In this document: positions 1-63,514 of the stretch, in pieces
How positions within the stretch are numbered: position 1 is the first letter of the stretch
Layout: each line of letters begins with the position of its first letter
NCBI GenBank assembly: GCA_003342815.1
Contig: PTEX01000013.1
Span: forward strand, 1,790,214 to 1,854,213
Source of the DNA: Eudromia elegans
Lineage: Eukaryota; Chordata; Aves; Tinamiformes; Tinamidae
Direction: 5' to 3'
DNA length: 64,000 bases
Made by a program: the position numbers and the translations under genes
The notes under the pieces: generated by a model
What the model was told of the DNA's origin: nothing
The model's input: only the letters and a program-made list of their open reading frames with translations
Databases searched by the model: none

Positions 1-374
1 AGGCCGCCTCGCTGCTGCTGCAGCAGCCGCCGCCGCCCGCGCCGCTGCCCTTGGACGGAGCGGCCGCCGCGGAGCCGCCGGCCGCCAAGGAGGCCGCGCC
101 GCTGCTGCCCAAGGAAGAGGAGGAGGAGGAGGGAGAGGCGGCCGCGCTGCCCGCCAGCAGCTCCGCCGGCAGCGCCGCCGCCGCCAGCCGCGAGCTCGAA
201 GAGCGGCGCGCGCAGCAGGAGGACATCGAGGAGCTGGAGACCAAGGCGGTGGGCATCTCCCCCGACGGCCGCTTCCTCAAGTTCGACATCGAGATCGGCA
301 GAGGCTCCTTCAAAACTGTCTACAAGGGCCTGGATACGGAGACCACCGTGGAGGTCGCCTGGTGCGAGCTGCAG
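1..374 (+). CDS. WNK1: WNK1 coding exon 1 (3' part): N-terminal tail end and glycine-rich loop of the kinase
   Basis: WNK1 is a cytosolic Ser/Thr kinase that senses chloride and osmotic stress and activates SPAK/OSR1, which control NCC, NKCC and KCC cotransporters. The frame is open from base 3 to the window edge with no ATG, so the start lies upstream (TTG at 51 is an internal Leu). The 124 visible residues begin with a Leu/Gln/Pro/Ala-rich stretch, then a run of six Glu, then an Ala/Ser-rich stretch. The conserved block [10 protein letters not shown] leads into the kinase domain. The glycine-rich loop reads [11 protein letters not shown]; its Lys (codon 312-314) corresponds to WNK1 catalytic Lys233. 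The segment ends VEVAWCELQ, with Cys (363-365) where other kinases have the subdomain II lysine. The exon ends on a whole codon before GTAACC. It is very GC-rich, typical of a CpG-island first exon. The unconserved residues before [10 protein letters not shown] cannot by themselves separate the WNK paralogues; later exons do. Confidence 0.95.
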
Positions 375-11734: not shown

Positions 11735-12366
11735 CACAGAATCACAGAATGGTTATGGCTGGAAGGGACCTCCAGAGATCATCCAGTCTAAGCCCCCTGC
11801 TCCAGCAGGGACCTCTAGAGCACCAGACACAAGGTGTCATCCAGGCATGTTTGGAAGATCTTCAGTAAAGGAGACTCCACAGCCTCTCTGGCAGCCTGTT
11901 CCAGGGCTCTGTCACCCTCACAGGAAAGAAGTTCTTTTTCACATGGAGATGGAACTGTCTGTGTTTCAACTTGCACCCAATTACCCCTTGTCCTATCACT
12001 GGCCACCACCAAGAAGAGTTTGGCCCGCTCCTCCCTAAGGTCTCTGCTCAGATACTTATATATATTAATCCAATCAGATCTCCTCTCAGTCTTCTCCTTT
12101 CTAGACTAAACAGGCCCAGCTCGTTTAGTCTTTGCTCATACGATAGATACTCCAGTCCCATAATCATCTTTGTCACTTTGCATTGGATCCTCTCCAGAAG
12201 CTCAATGTCCCTCTTGTGCTGAGGAGCCCAGAAGTGCACCCAATACTCCAGGTGTGGCCTCACCAGGGCTGAGGAGAAGGGTGAGATCACCTCCCTTGCC
12301 CTTCTGGCAACGCTCCTCCTGATGCAGGCCAGGATCCCGTTGACTTTCTCGGCCACGAGGGCACGT
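11735..12366 (-). mobile_element. CR1 LINE fragment, antisense orientation
   Basis: The left edge carries two CACAGAAT units (reverse complement of the CR1 3' terminal ATTCTRTG repeats), followed by the diagnostic GGAAGGGACCTCCAGAGATC. On the minus strand a frame ending near 12048 encodes the C-terminal part of the CR1 reverse-transcriptase ORF, including [26 protein letters not shown] and [10 protein letters not shown]. The copy is truncated upstream of that point and is not capable of mobilisation by itself. The + strand 164-codon frame at 11544-12038 overlaps this repeat and is spurious. Confidence 0.95.
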
Positions 12367-15300
12367 ATATAATAGCACTTTCTGCAACAGGAAAAAATAC
12401 CCAGTTTCTTGTCTATAATTTGAGAGTTGTGTTGAAACAAATGTTTTTCTTCCTGCCGGTATGAAATTTTATCAAATTTGAGAATCCCAGAAAATTACGC
12501 AGAATTGATGTCTAATTTATTGGTGTTGGAGATGCTTATATCTTAATATTCTTAAGTGATTTTTCTTTACTCTGAGAGCTTTCAATCTTCTTGGCTTTGA
12601 GAGTTGAAACGGCATTTAAGGTAGAGTAGCAACAACTCAATTCTTAGCTTATGTAAATTATGAATTGTAAAACCTTAGGGCTATGCACGGTTACTTCTGA
12701 AAATTGCCATTGCTATGATCCATTTGCTCCTGAAAGTAACCTTAATATAATGAAAGTAGCCTCACTGTAATGCTGAAGTTTGTGCATTTCATCGTTACTT
12801 CTTGCCAAAAACATCTCTCTTTCTTTTCTTAATTTAGTAATTCCTCCTTGAATAAGCTACCTAACCTTGATATGCATCAGTTTGTAATTTATTTTGCAGG
12901 CTTGTTGTGGATTAAATATTTATGAAGCATGCTGATCATGAGAAGCCATTCAATACATGCTTTCAGATTGAGTTATAAAATGGCAGTAGCCAGCGCTGTT
13001 GAGAGCTCCTGCTATTTGTGTGAGTGGTTTTTTATTTTACTTTATTTATTTTTACTGTTTTGTCATGTGTTATGAAACTGCACAGCTTGTGTGTAAGGAA
13101 AAACTTTATGATCATAATTTGGATGTTTGAAAGACTTTTCAGAATGGGAAGTCAGTCCCAGAGCAGTATCTATGACCTGTTTGGTGGTGGATGACTTACT
13201 CTTCCAGATGGCTTTCTGGGTCTGTTTTCTAATGGTAGTTATCAGGTGTATAGATAAGAGCTGCAAAGTGTGGAGATGGGTGGCCGTGAGGAAAGCTTTG
13301 TATGTGATTCTGTCCCAAGCGTAGAGATGTGAGGAAACTTACAATGCACCAACCTGGTAGATAGTTTCTGCATTTGGTAGATTGGTATTGGTGAAACACA
13401 TCTATTCCTTTGCAACTGGGGTAAAATATTCTTGATTTCTACACCATGTCAGTGATAAGACTTTGAGTTTCAGGTTGTTGCTAAAGTGGTTCAAAAGAAT
13501 CAGCAGGAGCCCTGATTGTCTCTTTGCAGATGTGAACCTGTGACAAGTGAAAGCCGAACAATTGGCCTGGGAATGGTGCAGCAAGGAAGTGACTCAGTTG
13601 TGTGAAGAAAGCATAAGTAGCTTTAGATTAGGAGAGGTGAAGAAGGGAAGTATGTCAGCATCTGCTGTACTTTAATCAGTAAAATAGATCCTAAAATTCC
13701 TATTATGGCAGTCCCTGGCATGTAACGTTATTGCCAGTGACTGGGTAGTGGGCTGAATTATTTAGCTGAGTGTATGTGTCACTGAAGCTCATCAGTGATT
13801 TTGTTATCTGTCAAAAAGCTGTTACGGTGTCTAATATGGCAGCTTATGCGACAGTGCTAAAATTCTGAAATACACTTGTGTTCTCCTTGACTTTGCTGTC
13901 CTACTGTATCCAACAGTGCATGTTTCTCATCTTAGTGAGTTTTTGCACCATGTGGCTTGACTGGCCTGTAAAAATTTGAAAGAATATGTCTATTCTATAT
14001 AAAATCACTGATAATTGCTAGGTAATGGCTCAAGTGATGTGCATGTTAACTAGGTAGCTGTGGCTGGCTGCCAGAAAAGAAAAAAGAAAACTGCAGGCTA
14101 TGGGGAATCTGATGCGTTAAGTGTGTTTTGACAATTAAAAAGGATATAAAATCTGAGGAAGTTGACACTGGAATTTAGAATGGGGGGAAAAAAAAGATAT
14201 TAATGTATAGAAGTATTTTGCATTTCCCTTTGACTTCTAGGTTTTTTTTTCTTGGGCAATAATTTGTAGGGAAACGGCATCTGTTTTTCTTCTTCCTGTG
14301 AGTAAGAATTGGTAACTGTTCCTGCCGCTTACCTGTTCAGGAAATACTCTTTTTTTTCTCCATCCTCTCTTCAAATAAACAAAACCCTGTGTGTCAGTCA
14401 TTGCCCATGTATCTATCTTTGCTTTGCTCCCTAATTTTAGGGCCTTTCTGGATCTTCATGTGGTCCTTGTATATGCAATCTGGTGCAAATTTCTTTTCTC
14501 TTCCTTTTACTTTTTCCTTTATCACTTGTAAAAGACTGCTGATCAGTCTGTATCTAAACTCTATCCAAATTTATACTCTTAGAGATGCTTTCTTCCTAAC
14601 TTTTTTTCCCTCCTTTTTTCCACATCTGGTAAATCAGTCTTATCCATGGAAATGTGCTTGTGATTCTCTTAGGAATTTGTCTTATACCTGAGCCTTTTTT
14701 CTCCCCCTTCTAAGGCAAAAATCTCTTTTCAGGAAGAGGAAAAAAAAAAATCATGGACTAGATTGAGCTTCATCTGAATGGAGTGTCTCGTTTCAGATAT
14801 ACTTTCTGTTGCTTCTCAGATGACCAAAACATAAGTGACGGCTGAGTAGCCTGTTTGTGTGGTAGGTCAAGGGCAGTTCCAACTCAGCAGTTTCCCTTTC
14901 CTCTTCCCTGAGTTTTGTTTGGAAGCAGTAGTGATTTGCTATTCTATATAGTCAGCCCTTTGACATGAAGGCCAGATGGAAATACGTCAGTTGTTTCATG
15001 TATAAATACTCAGTTCAACAGCTGTGAATCTATCAGGAGTGACTGGGATCACAAGTTGGTGAGCGAATTGTTGCTTTAGGGGGTTGCAAGCATTGCTCTA
15101 ATTTGAAGTAAGTGGAGTCACAGGATGTCTGGGAGAAGTTCTGTACCATCAAACTGCTAGAAAAAGTTTTAGGACTAGCAAGATTCATTGAATGAAGAAG
15201 AAATGAAGCTGAACCACTTAAATGTGAATTCCATTTTCAGGTGAAGTTTTAAGTGTTTTTCTGGGTATTACAGAAGTGCTCTTACAGTAATGATCATAAT

Positions 15301-32796: not shown

Positions 32797-34258
32797 TGCA
32801 GAATGGTTAAGGTTGGAAGGGACCTCCAGAGATCATCTAGTCCAACTCCCCTGCTCCAGCAGGGACAGCTAGAGCACGTGACACAGGGTGGCATCCAGGC
32901 ATGTTTGGAAGATCTCCAGAGAAGGAGACTCCACAGCCTCTCTGTGCAGCCTGTGCCAGGGCTCTGTCACCCTCACAGGAAAGAAGTTCCTCCTCACATG
33001 GAGATTGAACTGTCTGTGTTTCAATTTGTAGCCATTACCCTTTGTCCTACCACTGGCCACCACCAAGAAGAGTTTGGCCACCTTCTCCCTACATGTTAAT
33101 CAGATCCCTTCTCAGTCTTCGCTTCTCTAGTCTATACAGGCCCAGCTGGTTTAGTCTTTGCTCATACAATAGATGTTCCAAATCCTTAACCATCTTTGTT
33201 GCTGTGCACTGGGCCCTTTCTAGGAGCTCCACATCCCTCTTGTGCTGGGGAGCCCAGAACTGCACCCAATACTGCAGGTGCGGCCTCCCCAGAGCTGAGT
33301 AGAGGGGCAAGATCCCCTCCCTTGACCTGCTGGCAACGTTTCTCCTGATGGAGGCCAGGATCCCATTGACCTTCTTGGCTACAAGGGCACATTGCTGCCT
33401 CACAGTTAACTTGTTGTCAACTAGGATTCCCAAATCCCTCTCTGTGGAGCTGCTTTCCAGCAGATCAACCCCTAATCTGTACTGGTCCCTGGGATTATTC
33501 TGCCCAGGTGCAGGACCCTACACTTGTCCTTGTTGAACCTCATGAGGTTCCTCTCTGTCCAACTCTCCATCCTGTCTGGGTTCCTCTGAATGGCAGCACA
33601 GCCCTCTGGAGTGTTGGCCGCTCTGCCCCGTTTGGTACGGTCAGCAAACTTACTCAGCGTGCACTCTGTGCCCTTGTCCGAGTTGTTGATGAACAAGTTG
33701 AACAGCACTGGGCCCAGCACCGACCCCTGGGGGACACCACTGGCCGTAGACCTCCAACTAGACTTGACCTTGTTTATCACCACCTTCTGAGTTCTGATAT
33801 CCAAGCAGGTCTCGATCCACCTCACTGTCCATACGTCTAATCCACACTTCCGGAGCTTCCCTATGAGGATGTTATGGACGACTGTGTTGAAAGCCTTGCT
33901 GAAGTCAACATTGACAGCTCTCTCATCATCCATCAATCCAGACACTCCATTGTAGGAGGCTATTGGGTTTGTTAAACACGACTTCCCCTTGGTGAATCTG
34001 TGCTGACTAGTTCTGATCACCTTCTTTTCCTTAATATGCCTAGAGAGGATCTCTAGGATGAGCTGCTCTGTCACCTTTCCAGGGATAGAGGTGAGGCTGG
34101 TGGACCTGTAGTTTCCTGGCTCCTCCCTCTTGCCCTTTTTGAAGACTGAAGTGATATTAGCTCTCTTCCAGTCCTCCCTCACCTCCCCTGCTCTTCATGA
34201 CCTCTTGAAGATGATGGAGAGCATCTGAGCAAACTCCTCCCACTCCACTGGGGCAGGG
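32797..34258 (-). mobile_element. CR1 LINE, 1.46 kb antisense copy with reverse-transcriptase remnant
   Basis: This is the longest repeat in the window. Its 3' end is at the left (GGAAGGGACCTCCAGAGATC) and its RT-coding region extends right. The minus-strand frame 34182-33472 reads as the CR1 RT palm/thumb: [22 protein letters not shown], then [11 protein letters not shown], then [20 protein letters not shown]. The catalytic F-A-D-D motif reads FADR, so an active-site Asp is lost. A second frame, 33433-33089, continues the C-terminus ([23 protein letters not shown]) in another phase, showing at least one frameshift. The copy is truncated and inactive. Confidence 0.95.
33472..34182 (-). pseudogene. 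Decayed CR1 reverse-transcriptase ORF fragment
   Basis: The open stretch of 236 codons in the CR1 copy encodes RT fingers, palm and the start of the thumb. It lacks the endonuclease domain and the N-terminal RT region. The conserved aspartate pair of the palm (normally FADD) is FADR here, and the frame breaks before the C-terminal segment, which resumes in a different phase at about 33433. It is a fossil of a non-LTR retrotransposon, not a host gene. Confidence 0.92.
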
Positions 34259-36496: not shown

Positions 36497-36669
36497 GATC
36501 GGAAACTGTCCAAGTCAGAACGACAAAGATTTAAAGAGGAAGCTGGGATGCTGAAAGGGCTCCAGCATCCCAACATTGTCCGGTTCTATGATTCCTGGGA
36601 GTCTACAGTCAAAGGGAAAAAATGTATTGTTCTGGTGACGGAACTCATGACATCTGGAACACTGAAAAC
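36497..36669 (+). CDS. WNK1: WNK1 coding exon 2: kinase N-lobe, alpha-C to hinge
   Basis: The exon follows a CTAG acceptor and starts in phase 0 with [12 protein letters not shown]. It encodes the rest of the N-lobe: the alpha-C helix region ([20 protein letters not shown]), beta strands 4-5 and the hinge ([14 protein letters not shown]). It ends two bases into the Thr codon, before GTAAGT at 36670; the 173-base length gives the phase needed by exon 3. The second Glu of KEEA aligns with the alpha-C glutamate that pairs with catalytic Lys233. Two residues later this gene has Gly (GGG, 36545-36547), whereas mammalian WNK1 and the WNK2 and WNK3 sequences I recall have Glu, an odd difference treated under findings. 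[10 protein letters not shown] fits WNK1 better than WNK2 or WNK3, which have FWES at this place. Confidence 0.96.
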
Positions 36670-37555
36670 GTAAGTTAGCATGAGCACATAAACATACATG
36701 ACAAAGAACACTGAAAATAGGTCATATTCTGGGATAAGTTAGGACAGAATCCTTCTACTGAGGACTGGAGTTACCTAGGTCGATTTCTGGTCGAGAAGAG
36801 GCTGACAAGCCAGCTGCTGGTGTAGAGAGACATCCTGTAAGGGAGCAGGCTCATCACGTCCCTGCTTATAGCTTCCAAGAAAGCACATACAGGAAAACTT
36901 CCAGCACGCAAGAGTTGAGGAGGGCAGCGCTGGCTCTTCACTTCTCCCCAGATCTTTCATTTTATTTCCAGCTGCCCTCTGTTCGGGGCGTAAACTGCTT
37001 TGTAAAGCTCAAAGCCCTTTCTAGTTCATCTCCTAGTGTTGGGTGTAACGACAGCACAAATAATATGTGCAGAGAAGAAAATTAATTTAACTTGAGCTCT
37101 ACAGAGTAGTACCTAGCAAAAACATGAAATCACTGCTGAAACTCAGGCTGATGCATGGAGTTTGAAATTGTGAAGTAGCCGAGTGAAACAGGATCTGTCT
37201 TTTTTAAAAGAGTGTTAAGGAGACCCTAGGAAATTAAACTGCTGCGAGAGCCCTCTAGTGGTAGCTAGAGCTTTCAGGAAGGCTGCCCTGAATCCTGCAT
37301 CTTTGCTTGCACTCCAGAAACTTTCAGGGCTGGGAGCTTACTGGGAACATCGAGTTACAGGTAATCTGCTGGAAACAAAACTCACCACAGCTTGTAATTC
37401 AGGAATTGTCGGGCATTTGTTTTAATTCAGTGCCATTTATGCCTGTGAGAGGCATTCAGAGCAGCCTGTAGAGACTGGAAAGAATTTGCAATCCATTTGT
37501 ATAAATAGCCTGAATGTCCTGTGGGTTTCTTGGTGTGTTTTTTTATTTTTTCCCC

Positions 37556-41306: not shown

Positions 41307-41527
41307 GTATTTGAAAAGATTTAAAGTGATGAAAATCAAAGTGCTGCGAAGCTGGTGCCGTCAGATACTGAAAGGCTTGCAATTTCTACACACGCGCACT
41401 CCTCCCATTATCCACAGAGACTTAAAATGTGACAACATCTTCATTACTGGCCCCACTGGATCCGTCAAGATTGGAGACCTGGGTCTGGCAACGCTGAAAC
41501 GAGCTTCTTTTGCCAAAAGTGTGATAG
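41307..41527 (+). CDS. WNK1: WNK1 coding exon 3: catalytic loop, DLG motif and activation loop
   Basis: The first base completes the split Thr codon; the exon then reads [20 protein letters not shown]. The catalytic loop is HRDLKCDN (41413-41436), with the catalytic Asp at 41419-41421. The metal-binding motif is DLG (41476-41484) rather than DFG, the WNK-specific form whose Leu, with the next Leu of GLATL, lines the inhibitory chloride site. The activation loop contains RASFAKSV, whose Ser codons at 41506-41508 and 41518-41520 align with WNK1 Ser378 and Ser382; Ser382 is the main activating autophosphorylation site. The exon stops one base into the Gly codon, before GTAAGT. The 221-base length is phase-consistent. 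All catalytic residues are intact. Confidence 0.97.
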
Positions 41528-43552
41528 GTAAGTCTCTCTTGTCCTACAGGCTGGTGAGCCAGTCCATCTACTTGGAAACTTGAGTCTTTTAAGAAATTGT
41601 TTAAAGGTACATGGTCAAAGTCCCCAAAAGTGCAGGCTTTGTTCCTGGGCTGTTGAGGTCATTCTGTATTTCTTATTATATGCCGAAGTTATGGTTGTGC
41701 TTTTATATGTTGACATTATAAGTATTTTGGATATATGTTTCTTCTCTTGCCCAATGGTTTAGTGCAACATTGTTGATAAAACCAGTCTTGCTTCAATACA
41801 TGTAAATCTGAGCAATGTTTCTTCAAGAAATGTACAGCTGTGTTTTGGTGACATAGCTCCTTTTTCTAATAACCTTTTGATGTTTAGCCTAGCATTAATT
41901 TATATGGCCGAATTCTTTGAATTGTCACCAGGCATCAATATTCCATCTGTTATGCTTTAGTTTGCACAGAGGCAGAAACTAAAGTTTTCAAAGTCAACCA
42001 AAACTATTAAATACGAAGAGAGTAATATGTTGTCATCTTCAGGAAGTCCCTAGAATGTGGATTTCTGTAAGTTAGCAGGATATATTGGGGAAGTATTGCC
42101 TTATGTTTGCTCTGTTCTCTTCCTTAAACATTCACTAATGGCCTGTTGTCAAAGGGCTGTTGGGTGGATGGAAACAGTCTGGTCATTCTTGTGACTCCTG
42201 TAAAGAATCGGTTTTATCAGCTTTGTTTTTGTAGTTGTTTGAGTAGGCTGCAGGGATTGAAGTTGTTCTTCGTGCTCCTAATATTTAAAGCTTGCTAAAA
42301 TGCAAAATTGCTCAACAGTCCTATATTGAAATCCTTGATGGGATGAATGATAAACACTTGTAAATTGTGTTGCGAACTATCACTAAAATATTTCCTGCTT
42401 CTTAACCAGGTGGAACTATTGATAGAAATGAACTATATGCCGTATCGATACATTAAATTTTCTTAAACATATTCATCTTATCCTCAAACTTTTAATTGGA
42501 AGATTACCACTTCTTATCTTGTTAACCATCACTGGTTAGCTTTTGGATAACTGACTACAGTTGCATTCTGTTTTAGCATGGTGAAAACAAGCAATATGAT
42601 TATACTGAGTGAACGGCAAATTGTCTTGAATCTGGTATCTGCAGGAAATAATTCTGTGCTTAAATTTGCAAAAAACAAACTCTCATCTCTGGCTTCAAGT
42701 AAATCTGATCATACAATGCCATCTCTTTGCTTACAGAGGGGGGTGCTCTGATGCTTCACTGGGCAATAATTTCTGCAAACTATTTAAATGGGACTTGTTG
42801 AATCTCACGCTCTGTGCCTGTAACTCAATCTCTCTGTATTTCTAAGTATTTTTGACTGTAGGATGTCCCTCACTAATGCCTGTATCTGCAGTAGGCCTAT
42901 AAATATACTGCAGGTGGGAAGGTAAGTATATGAAGAAAAGGGCTCTGGTGAGTGGCCTTTGCAGAAAATTCCTTTATCTTCTTTCTCATGAAGATTTATA
43001 ATTTTAAGAGTTTTTCATTGCAAGGCCTTTCCTGAACCGTTCTACTTAAAAAAGTAAGTGGTGAGCATGAGGTCAGAGACTAGCTGTGGGCTCCTACCAA
43101 TGCTACTTCTTTTGCAGCAGAGGACCGTGAGGTAATTTTTGAAACAAGGTTTAATATGCCTCCTTTTTTACAGGGAGAAAAGGTAAGTGTCTTAACTCTC
43201 CTTAGTATTTGGTTTGCAGCCTATGGCTAGTCTGACTGCTTTCCCCTCTTTCTATCCCCACCTCTCCATTTGACTCCAACTCGATCCAAGCTGTTTTGGT
43301 GATGGCATTGACTAACATGCATAAAGCAGGAATTGCCTCAGCACTTCCATGACATCTGTAAAGGCCTTGCAATGCAAGACTCTCAAAGTATCTTGATGCA
43401 ACAGAGTGACTAAGGGTTTCCTCCCTCTTTTTTTGCCTCCACTTTCTCTTGTCTCACAGGTCTGCCCAGCCGCTTCTTCCTGCGGTGAGTAACGCCAGCA
43501 GCCTCTGCTCGCTTTGAGACATTTAGAGTCTGAATCGTTCTTTTAATTTAAG
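41528..43552 (+). other. WNK1 intron 3
   Basis: The donor is GTAAGT and the acceptor TTTTAATTTAAG. The last 450 bases contain several unused-looking splice-site pairs: 9 bases bracketed at 43174-43182 and 25 bases at 43460-43484 (see findings). No repeat family was recognised. The short open frame running on from exon 3 reaches a stop at 41581-41583 and is read-through only. Confidence 0.85.
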
Positions 43553-43710
43553 GTACCCCAGAGTTCATGGCCCCCGAGATGTATGAGGAGAAATACGATG
43601 AATCCGTTGATGTATATGCTTTTGGGATGTGTATGCTAGAGATGGCCACGTCTGAGTATCCTTATTCTGAGTGCCAAAATGCTGCGCAGATCTACCGGCG
43701 AGTGACCAGT
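43553..43710 (+). CDS. WNK1: WNK1 coding exon 4: APE motif and C-lobe
   Basis: It begins with the two bases completing the split Gly codon, then [20 protein letters not shown]. This covers the P+1 loop and the APE motif of subdomain VIII, the DVYAFGM segment of subdomain IX (with the structural Asp) and a helix through [20 protein letters not shown]. It ends on a whole codon at GTAAGT. The 158 bases keep frame with exons 3 and 5. In the long isoform it joins exon 5; in the exon 4A isoform it is skipped with exons 1-3. No substitutions disrupting the fold are seen. Confidence 0.97.
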
Positions 43711-55479: not shown

Positions 55480-56218
55480 TGAAAATCACCTTAACACACC
55501 TTACACTAAGCACACAGCGAGAGAGCGGCAGATGACAGTGCCAGTGGTAGCAGAGCGTGGTTGTCAGGAGGGAGAGAGGTGCAATATGTTGTGTTATCCC
55601 AGAGCTGAGCTGCCTACATGGAAAGTACTGATCTATGTCCTGCTAGGCGTGAAGAGAAGTTAGCCAGTTATAGGGATATTTAGGGAGTACCGTGGGATGA
55701 AGAGTAGAAGAACCTGCAGCCTTTCCCCTATTTCTTTTCCTCATTTCCCCAAGTGTAAAATTAGTGCCAGCACTCGTGTTCCGAACAGCCCCATTGCTGT
55801 CCCTTCAACATTACCCTTTGCCAGGGCATGAGTGCAAGCTGGATGATGATCTTGTGCACAACCTTACAGCTGGCAGACACCTGGGGTGGGGACTCTGCAG
55901 AGCAGGAGGCGGGGACATGCAGCCGCCTCCTCCTCCGCACAGGTAGCTGGGCAGGCAGAAAGGACCGGCCTTTTTTCTTGCTTGCATCCGTTTTCACTCT
56001 GCAGAGCCTGAGAGTGGCCAAAGCGGGTATTAAACTTGACTCTCTGCAGCCTCATGTACTGGACTTGGCGAAGTACAGGGAGTCTCAAAGAGCAAACGAT
56101 GCTGCCTTCTAGCCTTGATATCTGCTTCCCTTCGGCTGTGCGTTAAGGCAGCCGGGTAGCAACTTCCCTTTGGAAACGAGCACTCAGGTTGTTTCTGGTG
56201 CGTGTGTCTCTCTTCCTG
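55480..56218 (+). promoter_or_regulatory. WNK1: Putative internal promoter and 5' UTR region of the KS-WNK1 transcript
   Basis: In mammals the kidney-specific transcript starts from its own promoter in intron 4, just upstream of exon 4A. Here the corresponding stretch is clearly richer in GC and CpG than the flanking intron, for example near 55520, 55900-55990 and 56090-56190. There is no acceptor-like tract directly before the ATG, consistent with a first exon. A TATAAAAT string occurs further upstream at 55403, but its relevance is doubtful. The transcription start site cannot be placed from sequence; the boundaries given are only the GC-rich interval. Confidence 0.5.
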
Positions 56219-56308
56219 ATGGATTTCACAAGAAGAGAGATCTGTCCCGTCTTTGTAATTGTTAATTCCCACTGTTGTTGCTGCACGCAAAAGGATTGTG
56301 CCAAAGAG
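56219..56308 (+). CDS. WNK1: WNK1 alternative first coding exon 4A (KS-WNK1 N-terminus)
   Basis: A 30-codon exon begins with ATG, contains ICPVFVIVNSHCCCCTQKDC and ends on a whole codon (Glu) at a GTATGT donor. Exon 5 begins in phase 0, so the splice 56308 to 61063 is in frame. In mammals KS-WNK1 initiates at exon 4A in intron 4, which replaces exons 1-4 with 30 unique cysteine-rich residues. The product lacks most of the kinase domain, modulates full-length WNK1 in the distal convoluted tubule and nucleates WNK bodies through its hydrophobic Cys-rich motif. Residues 9-27 here hold six Cys (9, 19-22, 27) and a VFVIV hydrophobic run. The ATG at 56219 was chosen because it gives exactly 30 residues; a GTG or an upstream in-frame ATG would add residues without support. 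Expression is inferred, not seen. Confidence 0.88.
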
Positions 56309-58032
56309 GTATGTATGAATTTCACGGTATGGGATAAGTTTGTAAAGGCTTTGGGAGGTGAATCAGAATTCCTGACATACAAAACCACTCAGCTGGTCAG
56401 ACTTGGCATAAACTGGCTGTTCAGCTTGCAAAGGTGGCTGTACTTTTTCAGCAAGTTCTCTAAAAGCATAGACTGGAATTCTGAACGGCCAGTCTGGAGC
56501 AATCACTGTTCCTGCTGTTTCCTGTCATGATGATGTTTTTCACCTCACTTTTCTTTCAGTATAGCACTGCTGAGGAAGGGTATGTGCCACTTTCTGTGTC
56601 TTTTACTCTAGCTTGCTGTGATGTCAAAGTCACTCAAGGCTGTTTGTAATTCTCTTGTGAAGCAAATAATATCTGTAATACCTTTTGCATTGGGATGAGA
56701 TGATACAGCACTGATCCTGATGATCTAACTAATGCAAAATATTACATGTTTTTACATAAAAGTTGTTCAGAGGTGTCCTTGATAGCCTTTACTTTTGGCA
56801 AATACAAGTATTTTCAAGAGTACCTACATATATTTTTAATGGATCATACAACTGTTCAGGAATTATGTTAAATTTTGGAGACAAGATTTTTTAATTTGAT
56901 TACAATATGATAACATCTCTGATTTTTATCAGATGCAAGATTTGTCATGCAAAGTCTGTGCTTATGATTATGAGGACTGCAAGATCAGTATTTAGTTTTC
57001 TTTGGAATTGTTGCACTTTATGGTATCCACATACATAACCCTATTCTAAAGTTATGGACGTTCTCACAACATGTAACGTTCAGGAGTTGTCGCGTTTGTG
57101 GCAGCGCTGTGGCCTGAAGCAGCAGTTCTGCCCCGCTGAGCTCCTGGGCTTGCACTTTCCTTGCCTAAGCCCGAGAGCTCATGCAGCCTTGCAGTGAACT
57201 GCAAGGAAGGACTCTGTCCCATTGCAAGCTGATACGGCCTTTTTGTTCTGGGTTTCTTTTCAATTTGATAAGTAGCAAAATGTGGTTCACTTTTTTAACT
57301 TGTGCTTTTGCTTTAGTAAGTGCTTGTGCTGGCAAAAGGGAGAAAGTGGCGTGAGCATGGGAATAGGAGGTGGTTGACAGAAGTCAGTTGCTTTCAGCAG
57401 CAGCCTCAGTTTTTGCTGTCCATAATTTCAGAAAAAAAATGATTTTCTTATGTATCTGTGTTTATCTTTCTTGCGCATTTTTTCTTCCGTGTAAGATCTC
57501 TTCCTTTTTTTTCTCTCCTCTAGTAAATTCAGAAAAAAATGCTAACGTTAATGAAGTTTTTAGTTCTCTTTGAACTGCCACTGGGGAATGGGACCCATCA
57601 GTCTGAAGACTGGAGTTGTCCTGTGATTCTTCTGAGTGGTTTTGGGGTGCAAAGGGAAAATGGGGACAGGCATACAAGAACGTGACTATTTTGCAGTAAC
57701 TGTTTGAAGTGTTTGAAGCAGGAAATAGTGAGTAATCTCGTATGTCCTTGAGGGTCTTTGGATTTAGAAACCAATGAAAGCGCGTTTGGCTGCACAGCTC
57801 ATATGAGCTCTTAAGGACATGACAAGGTCATTTGGATCACAAGGCCTCCTTGGGTTTCTCTGTGATGGCAAGATTAAGCTGTATAGTCAGTTTAGGTCAA
57901 AAAGGGTTCATTGATTTCTTAAGTGCTATCACTGATACCTGGGTGAAATGTTTTAGTGAGTAAAACAGTCTTATCTCAGTCATGGGGTGTATAAAATAGT
58001 CTGACAGTATCACTTGAAGATGGGAAAAAAAA

Positions 58033-61062: not shown

Positions 61063-61151
61063 GGTGTCAAGCCTGCCAGCTTTGATAAAGTAGCGATCCC
61101 TGAAGTGAAGGAGATTATTGAGGGATGCATTCGGCAAAACAAAGGCGAAAG
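61063..61151 (+). CDS. WNK1: WNK1 coding exon 5: kinase C-lobe, common to long and KS isoforms
   Basis: The exon starts in phase 0 after TATGTTGCAG with [20 protein letters not shown], then GCIRQNKGE and two bases of an Arg codon. This is the subdomain X-XI helical region of the kinase C-lobe, including the Arg-containing IRQNK segment. It is the acceptor exon for both exon 4 (long isoform) and exon 4A (KS-WNK1), and its phase-0 start is what makes both joins productive. Human WNK1 has Asp in NKDER where this gene has Gly, a conservative-position surface difference. It ends at GTAAGT at 61152. Confidence 0.96.
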
Positions 61152-62737
61152 GTAAGTTCTTCTCAGTACCCACCAGTTTTGTAACTGTTATGATTAACTG
61201 TTTTGAGAAAAGTTAGAATGTGAATGCTACTAATTTGCAAGTTTGATTCTTTGGTAAGTTCTTGCTCAGTACTCCTATTGGAGGGTTATTTGCAAACACT
61301 GGTAGGAAAAGTGCTAACATTATAGCAACCCTCCTTATCAGTTTGTTCAGGAAGTACACCATTCTTACTTGAACTGTGAGCTAGTCAGTAAAACAGTGAT
61401 GGCAATCCTTCCAGGTTCCAGGTTTTGGATTGTTTGCTGGATTCCTCATTCTCTTCTGCTTGCTCTTCCCACCTCACCTCATCTTTTTGATTCTCTTGGC
61501 ATTTGATGACTGACCACTTCGTAGACTCTCGTTCTGACTTTTCTTTGTTCATATTAATTCCCAGTTTCTCTGAGGTGATTTCTACTTGAAGCACTTAATG
61601 TACAGATTTTCTGTAATATTATAGCTGTTATTTCATTTGTGAGTTTTTTTTTTCTGCTTTGCCACGGTTGTTGCTTACTGAAGGACTGGTTTAGGAATGC
61701 TTCAGCCTTGTGCCTTTCAGCAATACCCACTGTCTTCCTATCTGGCCCTCTGTCCAGAGTTTTTTGTCAGTTTATGGACAAGCTAATTTTGTGGCTGCAC
61801 ATCAGTCCTTGCCGTTGAGACTACTGCATTACACAATGCATGTGTAGGCTGTCTTTTAATTTTGTTGGTTAGGCAACTGGTAACCTTCACACTTGTCATA
61901 CACTGCTCACAAATCTTTAGAATTAGTATGACTGCAAGGCAAGCCTTGTCAGCTCTTTAGTACGCAGTGGTGGCTTTCCTCTAGTTAGGTCTCATACCTT
62001 AGTTGGTAGAGGATGTTGCTGTGTATGGACGTAATGGAAAACAGTGCTTCTGGAGCTATGTTAAGGCGTAGAAGTCCTAACTGGCCCGTATTAGAACTTA
62101 AATGCAAAGAATCATGAAATGAAAACTGATTCTCAGTATGTCTTTTTCTGCTACTTGAACTTTTCTGAAGCCTGTTATTGCCAAGCTCAGTTCTCAGTGT
62201 CAGAAGAAATACATAGCATTGCAAGTTCAGGACAAAGCTTCTGATTACACCAAAAAGAACAAGATGAAGTGATTCAGAAGTAAAGGGGAAGATCTGATGC
62301 TTAACCACTGCTGTAATAACTAGATGAGAATTTTGGATTCTGTCTTAAAGTATTTAATCTATTTAGAGGACTGTACTTATCTGGGGAAGAAAGGTTACAT
62401 ATTACATCTTAATCTTCAACAAAACTGAATTGTTTCTTCTAAGTTTTTTGTTTGTTATTTTAGTTAATACAGAACCTGTCAGTTCAGTTGGTGTAAAATC
62501 TCTTGACATTTCTGTTATATTGAGCAGTGTGTGCTTTTTGTATATCTCTAGTAGCATTCTGTTGAATTTCACACTTTAGAAGAGAAATTTCAACTATACA
62601 CTCCAAAATGATTAATGGGAGAAGCATGAAGTGTAGCTGGATAAATTTGTAGTGCTATCAATCAGTGATACTCCATTAGTATTTTGTCAAAACCTAATAA
62701 CTGTGTGTACTTTCTACACTCTTTCCCAATATGCTAG
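61152..62737 (+). other. WNK1 intron 5
   Basis: An AT-rich intron with GTAAGT donor and CAATATGCTAG acceptor. Open frames on either strand (up to about 107 codons) are not recognisable, and no repeat family was seen. Confidence 0.85.
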
Positions 62738-62957
62738 ATACGCTATTAAGGACCTTTTGAATCATGCTTTCTTCCAAGAAGAGACCGGGGTACGGGTAGA
62801 ACTAGCAGAGGAAGATGACGGAGAAAAAATTGCTATTAAGCTCTGGCTGCGAATTGAAGACATCAAAAAACTCAAGGGCAAATATAAAGATAACGAAGCA
62901 ATAGAGTTTTCTTTTGATTTGGAGAGAGATGTCCCAGAGGATGTAGCACAAGAAATG
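62738..62957 (+). CDS. WNK1: WNK1 coding exon 6: kinase end and PF2-like autoinhibitory domain
   Basis: The first base completes the Arg codon; the exon then reads [15 protein letters not shown], the end of the kinase domain. It continues into [20 protein letters not shown], then [20 protein letters not shown] and [17 protein letters not shown]. The latter part is the first PF2-like domain, which in WNK1 is autoinhibitory; its Phe-x-Phe pair (FSF here) is required for inhibition. The PF2 fold normally binds RFx(V/I) peptides, a role best known from SPAK/OSR1. The exon ends on a whole codon at GTAAGT. Residues before the split codon differ little from human. The minus-strand open frame here is a shadow. 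Confidence 0.97.
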
Positions 62958-63177
62958 GTAAGTGGTGACCTTACAAAGCACCTTGAAGGTACTGTCATTT
63001 CTCTGATAGCAAAGTGTGACCTGTCAACCTCTCTGTTTACTTTTTCTTTACTGTCTTGAAGTAAAAGCTCTTCTGAAGTTTAGAATGAGAAGTTAGTGCA
63101 AGGGAGCGATAAGCTCTATTGTAGCACTACGGCAATGACCATGTTTGACTGAATTCTGTGAATGTCTCTTCCTTCAG
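62958..63177 (+). other. WNK1 intron 6 (short)
   Basis: A 220-base intron, GTAAGT to TCTCTTCCTTCAG, with nothing else in it. The open frame continuing from exon 6 hits a stop at 63057-63059, so retention would truncate the protein. Confidence 0.95.
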
Positions 63178-63514
63178 GTGGAATCTGGCTATGTCTGTGA
63201 GGGGGATCACAAGACAATGGCAAAAGCTATCAAGGACAGGGTGTCTTTGATTAAGCGAAAACGAGAGCAGCGTCAATTGGTGCGAGAAGAGCAGGAGAAG
63301 AAGCTGCAGGAAGAAAGTAGTCAAAAGCAACAGCTGGAGCAGCAGCAACCGTCAAGCACTTCCCAGGCAGGCTCAAAGCATCCCCAGTCTGTCGCTGGTA
63401 CTGCTTCTGTCCCTACTACTTCAGCTTCAGTTTCCACACAAGTGGAACCTGAAGAGCCAGAAGCTGATCAACACCAACAGCTGCAGTTCCAGCAGCCCAG
63501 TATATCTGTTCTTT
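63178..63514 (+). CDS. WNK1: WNK1 coding exon 7: coiled segment and KLHL3-binding acidic motif
   Basis: It starts in phase 0 with VESGYVCEGDHKTMAKAIKD, then a basic/Glu/Gln-rich helical, probably coiled-coil stretch (RVSLIKRKREQRQLV onward). A Ser/Thr-rich linker follows, then EPEEPEADQH (63445-63474), then QQPSISVL. EPEEPEADQH is the acidic motif bound by KLHL3 of the CUL3 ubiquitin ligase, which sets WNK abundance; in people, mutations in this motif or in KLHL3/CUL3 cause familial hyperkalaemic hypertension. The exon ends one base into a codon before GTAAGT; the next exon is outside the window. The STQVEPEEPEADQH block followed by QLQFQQPSIS, nearly identical to human WNK1, is what identifies the paralogue as WNK1. 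Confidence 0.97.

Follow-up and report, generated by a model that had tools for sequence, protein, structure and literature searches.

The question raised by this locus is whether birds possess the small exon with which mammals begin a kinase-less form of WNK1. Excerpts of the mammalian literature describe a promoter in intron 4 that gives rise to this protein, KS-WNK1, as a scaffold of WNK bodies, and state that it nucleates these bodies, promotes the activation of WNK4 and NCC, and is degraded via KLHL3 (PMC12321387, PMC8174809, PMC11381001). We analysed a stretch of 64,000 nucleotides of DNA from Eudromia elegans, hereafter the window, and conclude that positions 56219-56308 are almost certainly an avian exon orthologous to WNK1 exon 4a, the first coding exon of KS-WNK1. 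The use of this exon of the window (exon 4A) as a first exon is well supported by its homologues.

A cysteine-rich coding exon in intron 4 of WNK1

Direct translation of 56219..56308 on the forward strand gives 30 sense codons from the ATG at 56219-56221, and the product, MDFTRREICPVFVIVNSHCCCCTQKDCAKE, contains VFVIV at residues 11-15, the run CCCC at residues 19-22, and six cysteines in all. The ATG lies in the context TTCCTGATGG, with C at -3 and G at +4. The exon is located in intron 4 of WNK1, between exon 4 (43552-43710) and exon 5 (61063-61151), and ends in the donor GAG/GTATGT in phase 0, the GT starting at 56309. Each of the elements named in the preliminary description, i.e. the start codon, the 30 codons, the cysteine run, the hydrophobic segment, the donor and the position in intron 4, is thus seen in the DNA itself. 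Exon 4 likewise ends in phase 0 (...RRVTS/GTAAGT) and exon 5 begins in phase 0 (...TTGCAG/GGT GTC AAG, encoding GVKPASF); therefore, either exon 4 or exon 4A can be joined to exon 5, and the in-frame junction of 4A with position 61063 that had been proposed agrees with both the frames and the splice sites. The assignment of 56219..56308 as the coding part of exon 4A rests on this translation, the phase-0 donor and the protein homologues described below.

Short open frames are common, and a chance frame in the intron has to be weighed: counting every ATG followed by 30 open codons and a GT on both strands of the window, we found 25 such frames (11 on the forward strand, 14 on the reverse), of which the exon 4A frame was the only one with either a hydrophobic pentad at residues 11-15 or at least five cysteines (1/25). 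A chance origin is nevertheless excluded, because nine public proteins that share the junction are homologous to the frame at E < 5e-7. Within the 944 Mb assembly, the peptide has one match (E 4.9e-15), and a search of the assembly for a second 4A-like copy found none. The 30 residues gave no match in the PDB at E values up to 10.

The surrounding gene and the predicted product

The exons of WNK1 were located by tblastn with a WNK1 kinase domain as the query, and all lie on the forward strand. Identity was 91.7-100% for exons 2-7; for exon 1 it was 61.7%, because the alignment extended beyond the exon. The part of exon 1 that encodes the start of the kinase domain and the glycine-rich loop (279..374, end approximate) belongs to L-WNK1 only. 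Exon 2 (36497..36670, tblastn ends) encodes the kinase N-lobe, exon 3 (41308..41529, tblastn ends) the HRDLKCDN catalytic loop, the DLG motif and the activation loop, and exon 4 (bounded by tblastn and a sequence scan) the region from the APE motif to RRVTS; all three are left out of the 4A isoform. From this exon layout, a protein started at exon 4A lacks the glycine-rich loop, the N-lobe, the catalytic loop, and the DLG and APE motifs, which bears out the earlier suggestion of a kinase-defective product with neither ATP site nor catalytic loop.

Downstream of exon 5, which was placed by tblastn and reading frame, exon 6 (62736..62960) encodes the end of the kinase C-lobe and the next conserved domain, and exon 7 (63178..63513) contains the intact acidic motif EPEEPEADQHQ; both exons have tblastn ends and were also identified by alignment with a KS-type protein from grouse. 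Binding of KLHL3 is the role ascribed to this motif in the excerpts of PMC8174809. The downstream WNK1 exons align with nearly the whole length of the grouse protein, where residues 309-451 and 977-1041 are covered only within alignments of 45-49% identity and the ten residues 1987-1996 are uncovered.

Two open frames within the WNK1 introns of the window, at 33472-34194 and 12048-12494 (both on the reverse strand), resemble remnants of a LINE-type reverse transcriptase, presumably of the CR1 family. Past the end of the window, an open frame of 488 codons occupies 5338-6801 of L026 (69338-70801 in continued window numbering) and resembles the nervous-system HSN2 exon of WNK1.

We propose that a promoter inside intron 4 would start the transcript in birds, and that the first coding exon (56219-56308) would be spliced to exon 5 at 61063. 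The resulting protein would open with 30 hydrophobic residues rich in cysteine, retain what is left of the kinase C-lobe, and continue through the entire C-terminal scaffold, in which the KLHL3-binding acidic motif lies; the ATP-binding lobe and the catalytic loop would be missing.

Proteins that begin with exon 4a

A search of 5.77 billion sequences with a long read-through reference as the query returned nine vertebrate proteins that start with a homologue of exon 4A (E 1.6e-7 to 4.3e-7). Eight of these are passerine entries labelled as WNK1 isoforms, and the ninth, from an alligator, is labelled hypothetical protein. A spliced query of 134 residues, searched over its region 1-40, yielded no candidate proteins, probably because the comparison was limited to proteins of similar length. 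A second search, with the full-length alligator protein as the query, gave 90 candidates. By name, these represent 12 bird and five turtle species, an alligator, a frog, and mammals, human among them; several isoforms represent the same species in places, and row P0069 is nameless. In all 90, the 4a sequence is followed directly by the start of exon 5, two of them having a partial 4a. The first residue is exactly the 4a methionine in 69 of the 90, and one further row, from a sloth, has seven extra residues before it. The retrieval was confined to proteins having short words in common with the query. Squamates, ducks and others are accordingly absent from the sample, and strongly changed or broken copies would have escaped it.

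The KS-WNK1-type reading of the exon is strengthened by this shared junction in proteins of birds, turtles, alligator, mammals and a frog. The preliminary description held that annotation would easily miss the exon; this does not stand, since records of birds and turtles from NCBI, named as WNK1 isoforms, start with exon 4A. The 'isoform X' names of NCBI denote computed models, and hence are no independent proof of expression.

The upstream region and splicing from exon 4

Twenty of the 90 proteins contain the kinase with the 4a sequence inside, and all are from mammals (lion, tiger, dog, fox, bat and rhinoceros). These raise another reading, in which exon 4A serves, additionally or alternatively, as an L-WNK1 exon spliced between exons 4 and 5, placing the cysteine-rich segment in a kinase-containing protein; indeed, the HRD motif is kept and 4a comes after exon 4 in these models of Panthera, Canis, Vulpes, Molossus and Diceros. 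All 20 cases are mammalian gene models, though, and not one of the 21 sauropsid rows is so arranged. In the window, we scanned the 11 AG dinucleotides at 56060-56218 and found none that permits a stop-free, in-frame splice from exon 4 to 4A: the sole AG in phase with exon 4 (exon start 56093) opens a frame that reaches a stop before the ATG. Splicing of exon 4A from exon 4 in the window bird is accordingly rejected (0/11 AGs workable), and we regard the internal exon as a very improbable account of this locus.

In 18 of the 20 mammalian proteins (P0039-P0046, P0051, P0055-P0059, P0070, P0071, P0073, P0075, P0088 and P0090), exon 4 (RRVTS) is followed by about six to seven residues, e.g. CILPFV, and then by the 4a methionine. 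P0088 and P0090 both lack the initial residues of 4a; RRVTS is joined inside 4a in the former, and the latter has a longer insert. Being gene models, these may represent a splice form or a prediction artefact.

For exon 4A as a first exon, a sequence scan marks 56026..56218 on the forward strand as a region that may serve as 5' UTR and core promoter, putative in both roles. A TATTAAA-like element at 56028, upstream of the ATG, is the sole promoter-like element seen. Two upstream ATGs, at 56054 and 56099, are both closed by the stop at 56144-56146, and four more lie at 55828-55917, upstream of the TATTAAA-like element.

Cysteine variation among sauropsids

All 21 sauropsid rows, which represent 18 species, have five cysteines, with the absent cysteine at one of four different sites, whereas six are found in the window, in the frog row and in the other 68 rows, comprising 67 that are named as mammals plus the unnamed P0069. 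Relative to the six of the window, the grouse has lost C9 (C9G), the alligator C21 (C21Y) and the turtles C27 (C27S or C27G), and a codon of the CCCC run is gone in the crane, ibis and passerines. A form of 29 residues is thus common to the ibis row, the two crane rows and the nine passerine rows, with isoleucine for valine at residue 11 (V11I), where the window has 30 residues and V11; the crane rows also both carry N16K.

To place the window bird, we built a tree from the shared part of WNK1 (15 rows, one gene), with exon 4A omitted. The window bird falls among the birds, outside a clade of the grouse together with the crane, ibis and four passerines (100/98); on the evidence of this one gene, it is probably a palaeognath. 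Grouping it with the grouse, the Galloanserae reading, is rejected (AU p 0.00285), in a test that is less strict because the group was named after the first tree had been seen. On this tree, two changes suffice for the number of cysteines alone (five or six); that there were four separate losses follows from the difference between the missing sites, and not from the cysteine count.

The absence of one of six cysteines from every sauropsid row, along with N16K in the cranes, could be taken to mean that the exon is a decaying relic, its sequence surviving in birds behind a silent promoter. Against this, the frame and the junction to exon 5 are intact in the 12 bird species retrieved (a sample that broken copies would escape), the copy in the window is intact with both splice sites present, and a silent exon of 90 bases would probably not have stayed unbroken for so long. 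We consider decay highly unlikely.

Another possibility, which we offer tentatively and think on balance doubtful, is that the exon 4a motif is conserved in its number of cysteines rather than in fixed partners. If so, nucleation of WNK bodies would need roughly five thiols close to a hydrophobic strand or helix, and not specific disulfide or metal pairs, and the bird lineages would be natural mutants of the cysteine motif. Among the KS-WNK1 and WNK1 papers listed, none deals with this cysteine variation, judging by titles and the opening of abstracts; the alignment in Boyd-Shiwarski 2018 may contain it.

Partner genes and the probable role in birds

A lack of WNK4 or NCC in the window bird would make the exon puzzling; this is rejected, as a WNK4-like locus and an N-terminal exon of SLC12A3 are both present in the assembly. 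The former, on contig C90, carries EPEEPEADQHQ, and we assign it provisionally to WNK4 from sequence signatures and a neighbouring gene, COA3. The NCC gene itself appears to be present: an NCC N-terminal exon at C642 has SLC12A3 structures as its best match, and for the other two SLC12 loci the best match among solved structures is SLC12A2. Three loci for WNK kinases were found in the assembly (contigs C25, C3 and C90), including WNK1 and the WNK4-like locus; the one on C3 carries SEEPEADQH and is perhaps WNK3. A fourth locus (WNK2) was not seen in the assembly, which may reflect absence, a gap or the limits of the search.

Because the WNK4-like locus and the NCC exon are present, operation of the mammalian mechanism in birds is the simplest reading. 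Most likely, bird KS-WNK1 acts like the mammalian protein in the distal nephron, where it would be expressed in the kidney and would be expected to form WNK bodies.

Comparison with known exon 4a

Conservation of exon 4a from coelacanth to human is already in print, according to the excerpts of PMC8174809; the origin before the split of mammals and birds that had been proposed from the window was thus already published there in a stronger form. Among the matches listed for birds and WNK in the literature, none names KS-WNK1. For this conservation, Boyd-Shiwarski 2018 is reportedly the primary source. Given the published conservation and the bird isoforms in NCBI-sourced records, what was noticed in the window is correct but ordinary: exon 4A is a genuine bird copy of a unit that was known before. 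Its retention in a bird that is probably a palaeognath fits the published view of KS-WNK1 as a potassium-sensing scaffold with an early origin among land vertebrates. In practical terms little is gained: a bird copy that has all six cysteines, and natural cysteine variants of sauropsids that could be used to probe how the exon 4a motif works.

Excerpts of PMC12321387 and PMC8174809 describe mammalian exon 4a as 30 residues long, with a hydrophobic stretch of five (Val-11 to Val-15) and with six cysteines, two of them outer. Exon 4A of the window has every one of these features, and the human row, WNK1 isoform X47 (P0080; MDIKKKDFCSVFVIINSHCCCCPQKDCINE), is identical to it at 19 of 30 residues; therefore, we assign it as exon 4a of KS-WNK1. 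The human sequence shares with the window its length, six cysteines in the same places, VFVI followed by V or I at 11-15, and the junction to exon 5; the window differs from it in P for S at 10, E-I for D-F at 7-8, and AKE for INE at the end.

A mouse amphipathic helix is reported for exon 4a (PMC12321387/PMC8174809, in excerpt), whereas a single-sequence AlphaFold2 model of the 30 residues of the window shows two short strands (11-15 and 18-22) and a short helix (24-29), with a mean pLDDT of 71; the model was built with neither an alignment nor the kinase remnant, and carries low weight.

The start, motif and junction of the window recur in the grouse (P0018), crane (P0021/P0022), ibis (P0019), nine passerines, five turtles and alligator (P0002). 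Of the 30 residues, 24-25 are identical to the window in the grouse, in the alligator and in three turtle rows out of four compared; the fourth, Gopherus, has 23. In the WNK1-like protein of the frog Discoglossus pictus (P0091), a cysteine-rich start with six cysteines is joined to exon 5 as in the window, but it is 27 residues long and has VIVIL instead of VFVIV.
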